64,000 bases of DNA from Natronorubrum texcoconense (GTDB taxonomy: Archaea > Halobacteriota > Halobacteria > Halobacteriales > Natrialbaceae): contig NZ_FNFE01000001.1 in NCBI RefSeq assembly GCF_900100335.1, forward strand, positions 1,116,001 to 1,180,000. The letters are read 5' to 3'. The notes beneath the pieces were generated by a model. It saw only the letters and a program-made list of their open reading frames with translations. It did no database searches and had not been told where the DNA came from. Numbering within the stretch: position 1 is the first letter of the stretch; the number at the start of each line of letters is the position of its first letter. Below, in pieces: positions 56 through 31,786 of this stretch. The translations under genes were made by a program, and so were the position numbers.

Positions 56-121
56 AGTAGGTTGGGGCAGATTTGAACCACGGTCGTTCCGCTTCGCTCC
101 ACTCCCTGATTCAAATCTGCC
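56..121 (-). repeat. Duplicated tRNA-Val 3' end with inverted T-arm copy (att-like)
   Basis: Bases 60-78 repeat the tRNA-Val 3' end (170-188) exactly over 19 bp; 56-78 matches 166-188 with one mismatch. At 110-121 an inverted copy of the T-arm (GGCAGATTTGAA) can pair with TTCAAATCTGCC of the direct copy, giving a 12-bp stem with a loop of about 32 nt. Direct copies of a tRNA 3' end are the usual footprint of tyrosine-recombinase integration. No intact integrase is visible here because the window edge is 55 bp away. tRNA-Glu at 31.7 kb has the same arrangement. Confidence 0.75.
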
Positions 122-167
122 TAACGTAACGAATTTGCTGCTCGCGGATTGCTCGCAGCAAAATTAG

Positions 168-242
168 TGGGTTGGGGCAGATTTGAACTGCCGACTTCCT
201 CCGTGTGAAGGAGGTATCATAACCAGACTAGATCACCAACCC
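168..242 (-). tRNA. tRNA-Val (anticodon CAC)
   Basis: On the minus strand the 75 nt fold into a full cloverleaf. The acceptor stem pairs GGGTTGG with CCAACCC and is followed by discriminator A. The anticodon stem is CCTCC/GGAGG around the loop TTCACAC, so the anticodon is CAC and it reads the valine codon GUG. The T-arm contains GGTTCAAATC-like bases (here AGTTCAAATCT). CCA is not encoded. A TATA-like TTAAGTTAAA lies about 25-30 bp upstream. A 7-bp hairpin (242-248 with 257-263) abuts the 5' end. The 3' end is duplicated 110 bp downstream, as described separately. Confidence 0.95.
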
Positions 243-17622: not shown

Positions 17623-17809
17623 ACCCGTGAATGATCTCCACAGTGTAAACGTGTACTGGCCGCCACGGGCCGCGCGGCGTGTGAACCTGTCGCGGCTGAC
17701 GGTATCCGCTCGTCCCGACGACGGCACTCGTGTTGTCGACCCATCGGTCGGTTGTCCGACGGTGAAGGGAGTGGCTTACTATGTGCTGGCTCGGGCTACC
17801 AGCAGTCGA

Positions 17810-18565
17810 ATGAGACCCGCGGAAGAGCGGTTCACGAGGCATCTGGTCGAGGGCGAATCGGTGCAGAATCTCGTGCCCGGGACGCTGCTCGAGGATGCCG
17901 TTCGCGGCACCGCAGCGGTCGGTGCGACCGACCGCCGGATACTGTGCGTTTCGAAGACCGGCGAGTTCGTCGACGTCGGCTACGACTACATCTGCTCGAT
18001 CGAAAGCCAACGGCGAGCCAGAACTGAGTATCGGCCCGGGGACGAGAACGACCGACTGCTCTCCCTTCTGGGTGGGATCGTCGGGCTGGCCGCGCTCGCC
18101 CTCGTCGTCGCCGCCAACGTCCCCGTCGACGCGTTCGGTGGTTCCCTTTCGGTCGGTCTCGCAACCGCGACGGTCGGCGTCGCGGGCGCCGTCGAACACG
18201 TCCGCAGGCAGCCTGCTATCGGCCGAGCGTACGCACCGGTGTTCGTCGGCGCCGGCATCTTCTCGCTCCTCGCGCTCGTCGGGGTCGCGCTCGTCGTACC
18301 GAACGTGTACGTTCCGCTGTACCTGCTCGTGACGCTCGGCGGGGGCGGACTGGTGGCCTACGCGGCCCGTCACCGAACGCACCTCAGCGGCCCGGGACTC
18401 GAGCGTCATCGCGAGACCCACCTCAGTATCAACACGATCGACGGCGAGACGGTACGGATCGCAATCGACGCCGAGACCGATTTCGACCGCGAACTCAGCG
18501 CGTGCGTTCACCGGTACGAGGGCTCGACTATCGATCGAGCCATCGCTGGAACTCCAACGGAGTGA
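17810..18565 (+). CDS. Membrane protein with PH-like domain
   Basis: A 251-residue protein. Residues 1-70 (RPAEERFTRHLVEGESVQNL ... ATDRRILCVSKTG) look like a bacterial/archaeal PH-type domain, based on the TDRRILCV strand. Four hydrophobic helices follow (about 85-175), then a soluble C-terminal segment with another PH-like fragment (LSINTIDGETVRIAID). Function is unknown. The ATG at 17810 (MRPAEERF) is the best start; the upstream frame overlaps the divergent surface-protein gene and lacks coding character. Confidence 0.7.
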   Translation: MRPAEERFTRHLVEGESVQNLVPGTLLEDAVRGTAAVGATDRRILCVSKTGEFVDVGYDYICSIESQRRARTEYRPGDENDRLLSLLGGIVGLAALALVVAANVPVDAFGGSLSVGLATATVGVAGAVEHVRRQPAIGRAYAPVFVGAGIFSLLALVGVALVVPNVYVPLYLLVTLGGGGLVAYAARHRTHLSGPGLERHRETHLSINTIDGETVRIAIDAETDFDRELSACVHRYEGSTIDRAIAGTPTE

Positions 18566-31548: not shown

Positions 31549-31668
31549 TCATGCTTGACTGCTCTCGTCCAATACGTCGTACACGCGTTTTGTGATGGTC
31601 TCTGCGAAATGTGCTCCGTCAGGGATTTGAACCACGCGAAACGCTCGCTTCGCTTGCGTTTCTCTCAT
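31549..31668 (-). CDS. 39-codon ORF containing the tRNA-Glu 3'-end copy
   Basis: ATG to TGA, with MRETQAKRAFRVVQIPDGAH at the start and a helix-like tail TITKRVYDVLDESS. The bases that match the tRNA T-arm and acceptor (31612-31633) are read as VVQIPDG. The equivalent repeat beside tRNA-Val is read in the same frame as VVQIC. It may be the leftover 3' end of an integrated element's gene; expression is unproven. Confidence 0.4.
   Translation of the reverse strand: MRETQAKRAFRVVQIPDGAHFAETITKRVYDVLDESSQA
31612..31633 (-). repeat. Exact 22-bp copy of tRNA-Glu 3' end (att-like)
   Basis: The bases tgctccgtcagggatttgaa plus cc match 31712-31733 exactly, 100 bp apart. An inverted T-arm-like copy (attcaaattcc, 31667-31677) and a 7-bp perfect inner stem (gaaacgc/gcgtttc) lie between. 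The layout equals that downstream of tRNA-Val, and suggests a scar of site-specific integration at a tRNA gene. Confidence 0.8.
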
Positions 31669-31711
31669 TCAAATTCCTTCCGTCCGCTTTCGCTCACTAC
31701 GTTCGCAAAAA

Positions 31712-31786
31712 TGCTCCGTCAGGGATTTGAACCCTGGTCATCGGCTCGAAAGGCCGAAATGATTGGCCGGACTACACCAACGGAGC
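31712..31786 (-). tRNA. tRNA-Glu (anticodon TTC)
   Basis: On the minus strand 75 nt form a cloverleaf: acceptor GCTCCGT/ACGGAGC with discriminator A, anticodon stem TCGGC/GCCGA around CTTTCGA (anticodon TTC, reading GAA/GAG), and T-arm CAGGGTTCAAATCCCTG. CCA is not encoded. A TATA-like CTTTTTACT lies about 28 bp upstream (31815-31823). Confidence 0.96.

Follow-up and report, generated by a model that had tools for sequence, protein, structure and literature searches.

The window analysed here is a stretch of 64,000 nucleotides from Natronorubrum texcoconense. The gene for tRNA-Glu(TTC) lies in it at 31712..31786 on the minus strand (ARAGORN and Rfam RF00005), and a compact unit of repeats follows the gene on the same strand. 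Hairpin 1 (TTTTTGCGAACGTAGTGAGCGAAA, 31688..31711), which is built from a stem, tandem GA/GA, AC/GT and a triloop, starts without a gap after the tRNA. It is followed by an inverted copy of the T-arm (AAGGAATTTGAA, 31668..31679) that is complementary to the 3' strand of the T-stem and the T-loop, by an inner hairpin cassette (TGAGAGAAACGCAAGCGAAGCGAGCGTTTCGCGTGG, 31632..31667) with a 7-bp stem, GAAACGC/GCGTTTC, and by a direct copy of the tRNA 3' end (31612..31633), which is exact over 22 bp and extends from the T-loop to the discriminator base. The arms derive from the tRNA between its T-loop and its 3' end (31712-31731, minus strand, by exact repeat), and the longest exact repeat pairs 31712-31733 with 31612-31633 at an offset of exactly 100. 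A 39-codon ATG frame, which we judged to be non-coding, also crosses the unit (31549..31668, minus strand). The first-pass annotation of this DNA had described the 22-bp recurrence, the inverted T-arm copy, the 7-bp stem and the ATG frame from 31668 to 31549, and all of them were recovered.

The same order of parts, as that annotation had also proposed, is found on the minus strand at the second module of the window, which is anchored at tRNA-Val(CAC) (167..242, ARAGORN and Rfam). Its hairpin 1 lies at 134..163, the inverted T-arm copy (GGCAGATTTGAA) at 110..121, the inner cassette at 78..109 and the direct copy of the tRNA-Val 3' end at 60..78. Both middles contain AGCGAAGCG. Relatives of the Glu inner cassette are located at tRNA-Met, tRNA-Lys and tRNA-Glu in other species. 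When the window was scanned for the apical motif, most matches fell in coding regions and had one-pair stems, and outside genes the Glu hairpin alone was notable. The single-strand folding energy of the Glu unit is modestly below that of shuffled sequences (DNA z −1.2).

We located the 43 tRNA genes of the genome and read the flanks of each. A strict unit was defined by a copy matching at 15 or more of 19 positions together with an inverted arm. Strict units stand directly after 23 of the 43 tRNA genes, which supports the earlier idea that one mechanism lies behind modules at many tRNAs. In a congener (G326) 22 of 44 tRNA genes carry such units, and in a genome of 2.1 Mb from another family (G007) 19 of 43 do. 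When decayed copies were also accepted on visual inspection, about 31 of the 43 tRNAs of our genome had a module, and arrays of two to five units occur. Over the whole genome, a 12-mer specific to the tRNA itself ranked in the top 5% downstream of 24 of the 43 tRNAs and upstream of only 2. The recurrence of tRNA-specific arms downstream is thus far above chance. A relaxed pattern gave 25 matches in the 4.6-Mb genome, of which 12 were within 400 bp downstream of a tRNA, none was upstream, and a 13th followed a displaced 3' end of tRNA-Glu.

The order of a unit is constant: hairpin 1, inverted T-arm, exchangeable inner hairpin, and direct copy from the T-loop to the tRNA 3' end. We compared both arms with the local tRNA in an anchored comparison. 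The direct arm and the adjacent tRNA have the same base at 243 of 276 positions (130 ± 10 after permutation), and the T-stem part of the inverted arm matches at 79 of 115 (51 ± 4 after permutation); in neither case did any of 20,000 permutations reach the observed match. Covariation between arms and adjacent tRNA in a wider alignment, on which the first-pass annotation had staked its proposal, was therefore found, and for both arms. Since the match of the inverted arm to the tRNA (79) is at least as good as its match to the copy beside it (73), it is the tRNA that the arms follow and not each other. At base 57 of the T-loop (A or G), tRNA and inverted arm are consistent in 136 of the 140 units, although in this retest the arm was picked partly by its match, which makes the count slightly biased and leaves the smaller permutation comparison as the unbiased test.

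The first-pass annotation was right that the tRNA 3' end is duplicated; as a correction, the copied piece begins at the T-loop and not at the 5' strand of the T-stem. In the copies the 5' strand of the T-stem is not tRNA-specific (61 of 115 positions, against 53 when permuted), and a generic GTGG-like context precedes them; thus, the direct copy spans the T-loop to the discriminator base. The copy lacks CCA, which would speak against reverse transcription of a mature tRNA. Twelve of the 140 direct copies carry one extra T-loop base (TTCA-C/T-AATC), often after GTAG, as a recurring bulge of the outer stem; they are located at Phe, Ser-tga, Thr-cgt and Lys-ctt in our genome and related loci.

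We then considered the class as a whole. In a first search, 19 of 20 loci were directly downstream of a tRNA. At the twentieth (L059:1430-1550) the module stands without an intact tRNA and is preceded by an apparent 3' remnant of tRNA-Val. The palindrome GATTTGAA-N22-52-TTCAAATC is present in 260 of 292 Halobacteria genomes, and a stricter motif that includes the apical hairpin in 91 of 116; the reversed control and the control of the stricter motif both gave 0. Because such patterns detect only tRNAs with the common T-loop, these counts are lower bounds. Among 36 oriented matches that were sampled, 33 were on the tRNA strand and downstream, 2 were flipped, none was upstream and 1 had no tRNA. 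In the rest of the phylum, outside the class, there were at most single matches per genome, and those among the matches listed were not module-like. Whether the module stands beside other tRNAs had been set as a test of the earlier proposal, and it does so both genome-wide and across the class.

Orthologous loci showed that the units turn over quickly in number and content. The orthologous tRNA-Glu locus carries 0, 1 or 2 units across species of the family, and the inner hairpins are unrelated. Between our genome and G326, differences of exactly one period exist at Thr-cgt, Leu-tag, Cys and Arg-gcg. The inner alone was replaced in 5 units (Arg-tct, Lys-ttt, Lys-ctt, Gly-gcc and Phe), with hairpin 1, arms and copy kept; of the other units, 5 are conserved, hairpin 1 alone is different in 3, and both hairpins are different in 14. 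At tRNA-Phe, for example, identity is 1.00 for hairpin 1, 1.00 for the inverted arm, 0.95 for the copy and 0.53 for the inner. These replacements between the congeners break exactly at the T-loops (GATTTGAA ... TTCAAATC).

The relatives of the two hairpins are distributed differently. Of the pairs of similar inners (at least 85%), 97 of 144 are at different isoacceptors, against 34 of 40 pairs of similar hairpin 1 at the same isoacceptor. In our genome, tRNA-Val(CAC) and tRNA-Arg(CCT) carry an identical inner between arms that differ as the two tRNAs do. From such comparisons between species we infer that inner hairpins have probably been exchanged between tRNA loci. Inners flipped between intact tRNA-specific arms were observed at tRNA-Phe and tRNA-Ala (L392, L407), and flipping in place is expected of DNA recombination between inverted T-loops.

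Taken together, these results are probably best explained by a family of short palindromic DNA cassettes, non-coding and mosaic in make-up, that are anchored at tRNA 3' ends, remodelled by recombination, and spread class-wide in Halobacteria. Gain and loss of units would result from recombination between the direct copies of about 22 bp. The inner cassettes may spread by T-loop-guided copying or template switching, in which a strand ending in TTCAAATC would prime on the T-arm of another tRNA and extend into its 3' end. Priming and extension would leave an arm specific to the local tRNA at either side of the cassette, since in a palindromic cassette the inverted arm would be matched to that tRNA by an equivalent step on the opposite strand.

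We asked in which nucleic acid the cassettes would fold. The module could be a structured RNA transcribed together with the tRNA, as a trailer or as a small RNA; its inverted arm would pair with the T-arm of the tRNA or with the copy and so affect 3' processing, stability or termination. The strand bias of the sampled matches (33 vs 2) agrees with this, as do the better folding of the sense strand than of the antisense strand in 117 of 140 units, the T-rich start of hairpin 1 and the position of the unit directly at the tRNA 3' end. The base pairs give a divided answer. Over the whole second hairpin G.T exceeds A.C (82 vs 52), whereas in the inner stems it does not (20 vs 33), and the G.U share of pairs is lower than in tRNAs (5.7% vs 8.9%). 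In the window only the two tRNAs match Rfam covariance models, so that no other known structured RNA was recognised there. Orthologous tRNAs, moreover, often have 0, 1 or 2 units and unrelated inners, which argues against an RNA, and the apical loops are GNA triloops, which are typical of hyperstable DNA hairpins. We regard the RNA explanation as unlikely.

Those apical loops point to the other nucleic acid. The apex GA-NN-GNA-NN-GA occurs in 65 of 140 inners, whereas the opposite strand has 2 and shuffled sequences 2.4, and GNA accounts for 51 of the 67 triloops in such apices. The family motif of hairpin 1 is found in 46 of 140 units and in none on the other strand. Isolated mismatches are G.A in 108 cases and T.C in 9. 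Minihairpins of the type d(GCGNAGC) are exceptionally stable as DNA, with a melting temperature of about 78 °C for d(GCGAAGC) (PMC4686876). GNA triloops, tandem G.A pairs and inner stems without a preference for G.U suggest that the folded form is single-stranded DNA of the sense strand. Thus, the modules probably fold as sense-strand DNA hairpins; the structural data tip the balance towards single-stranded DNA over RNA without settling the question.

The host may also keep the modules for its own benefit. The copies could serve as insulation or as spare 3' ends that absorb integration, or as a shield of the tRNA gene against recombination. The modules are near-universal in the class, the direct copies are accurate (243 of 276 positions, as above), and tRNA 3' ends are prime targets of integration (PMC8371274), all of which would fit such a role. 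However, tRNAs without modules (Gly-ccc, Ala-ggc and Leu-gag) are stable in both congeners, and an element has integrated at tRNA-Glu(CTC) of our own genome despite the modules there. We consider a benefit to the host rather improbable as the reason for their upkeep; it is more likely that the array is a mosaic repeat that is mainly selfish or driven by recombination, comparable to bacterial REP/BIME, than that it benefits the host.

The element at tRNA-Glu(CTC) also bears on whether the units are relics of integrative elements, that is, displaced tRNA 3' ends (attR) left after deletion between attL and attR. Integration classically leaves a direct repeat of a tRNA 3' end, archaeal integrases prefer such ends as targets (PMC8371274), and HF2-like islands at tRNA-Glu are known (PMC3119063). 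The element is a genuine integrated one of about 54 kb (L335:16914-18017 in G000:C2, after tRNA-Glu(CTC) at 958683-958757; L304, about 17790-17830), and its tyrosine integrase (PF00589) adjoins the tRNA. Its attL and attR share a common core of about 47 bp that begins at the anticodon loop and ends 6 nt beyond the tRNA, whereas the copies in the modules start at the T-loop. At its far end there is the displaced tRNA 3' end and then two chromosomal module units, so that the genome's own modules lie at the far end of the element and not at the tRNA.

Two integrase queries were run against all fetched tRNA loci, and they matched only tRNA-Glu loci that have no module at the tRNA, together with one integrase fragment past the array at Gly-tcc; three integrase-bearing tRNA-Glu loci lack a module at the tRNA. 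Apart from that fragment, no integrase or remnant was found between or beside the repeats. The architecture is constant, with inverted arms specific to the tRNA, at over half of the tRNAs, which also argues against relics, and two refined module patterns had no exact match in 2.9 million viral contigs. We therefore rejected the attachment-site relic, which we hold to be very improbable. The link to an integrase attP that the first-pass annotation had raised is not supported: the modules have no integrase, and the att core of the genuine element is different and longer. As further observations, the fragment just past the tRNA-Gly(TCC) array is from an integrase C-terminus (L014:1830-2000, 82% identity over 57 aa), and at two loci (L239, L253) tRNA-Glu is followed directly, with no module, by an open frame that is similar to part of an inserted element.

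It is extremely improbable that the VVQI frame across the copied bases encodes a short protein or the tail of an integrase. The 39- and 34-codon frames are open in the window, but over 96 units each of the three frames is as open as the others, and the VVQI frame is neither longer nor more often ATG-started; the ATG is absent from the congener, the frame is not preserved across homologues and the 39-aa product has no Pfam or PHROG family match. The reading frame shared by the two loci, on which the first-pass annotation had remarked, is a by-product of the DNA consensus, VVQI being the translation of GTGGTTCAAATC.

Several other origins were rejected. Broad-pattern matches in viral contigs were unspecific among the matches listed, because the pattern is only a 16-base palindrome, and the two refined patterns gave none, so a viral origin was not retained. 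BLAST against phages returned only partial matches of 34-47 bp to Sulfolobus virus sequences, and BLAST against plasmids returned matches of about 75 bp on haloarchaeal plasmids that are consistent with tRNA-Glu genes. A CRISPR array does not apply either: its repeats would be identical and its spacers unrelated, whereas here each tRNA has repeats of its own and the segments between them belong to shared hairpin families. Presence of genes was also compared with presence of modules, and neither Y1 transposases nor integrases were linked to the units. One genome with 10 pattern matches (G033) has no PF01797, while another with no match (G037) has four; integrases occur both in a module-rich genome and in a genome without pattern matches.

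REP palindromes of bacteria carry a constant GTAG or CGTC tag, and it stands on the side opposite to the ends of our inner cassettes (GTGG in 54 of 140, GTAG in 17 of 140). The tRNA modules agree with the REP/RAYT description in being intergenic mosaic clusters of short palindromes 3' of genes. They further resemble REP/BIME in being non-coding, in the alternating orientation of a motif, in the single-strand hairpins that they probably form and in fast turnover between species (PMC3733652). In contrast to REP/BIME, the present repeats are confined to tRNA genes and their alternating motif is copied from the neighbouring tRNA; in contrast to REP/RAYT, no dedicated Y1 transposase accompanies them by the gene presence test. 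A survey of GTAG- and CGTC-tagged REPs lists bacterial phyla (PMC3733652).

Among archaea, Methanopyrus kandleri has a palindrome about 10 bp downstream of about half of its tRNAs, but this is one short fixed CGTTA(N)9TAACG without tRNA-specific arms or tandem units, and it was reported only in that species (PMC5217627). Haloquadratum walsbyi has PATE, MITE and small mobile repeats, which are likewise haloarchaeal, gene-free and short, with palindromes or inverted repeats; however, no anchoring at tRNAs is described for them, and their ends are no copies of a host gene (PMC3119063). The att duplications of SSV, pNOB8, SNJ2 and HF2-like elements share the tRNA 3' end as a direct repeat (PMC8371274, PMC3119063). 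They differ in the start of the core, and the modules have no integrase, keep a period of about 100 bp and add a tRNA-specific inverted arm and exchangeable hairpins, while real elements displace modules. Integron attC cassettes are exchangeable units between palindromic recombination sites that fold as single strands, and in this they are like the modules; the modules, however, have neither genes nor an integron integrase, and their arms differ at each tRNA.

In the open-access literature we found no published description of tRNA-anchored hairpin arrays. Tentatively, the modules may represent a new genetic element: gene-free single-stranded DNA hairpin cassettes that home to tRNA genes via the shared T-loop, add at each new site a copy of the tRNA 3' end to each of their own ends, and in this way circulate among all haloarchaeal tRNA loci without a tRNA-specific recombinase. 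The surroundings of most haloarchaeal tRNAs may have been shaped by an element of which we found no description. Cassettes anchored at tRNAs would account for a large share of the "partial tRNA" repeats that are otherwise taken as integration scars, and for annotation it follows that a 22-bp copy from the T-loop to the tRNA end within about 150 bp is usually not attR. The cassettes would also record, in natural genomes, how DNA recombines through 8-bp palindromes, and they offer a simple way to ask if single-stranded DNA hairpins drive cassette exchange in archaea.

Two loci are of additional interest. The tRNA-Ser(tga) of G007 is followed by a five-unit array (L373, G007:C1:704500-707500) in which units 1 and 3 have a common inner, as do units 2 and 4; this pairing suggests a duplicated block of two units. 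In Natronorubrum bangense, a locus with tRNA-Glu and a fumarylacetoacetase-like gene is present both on the chromosome and on an 828-kb plasmid (L224, L225), and the 3' flanks of the two tRNAs are identical.
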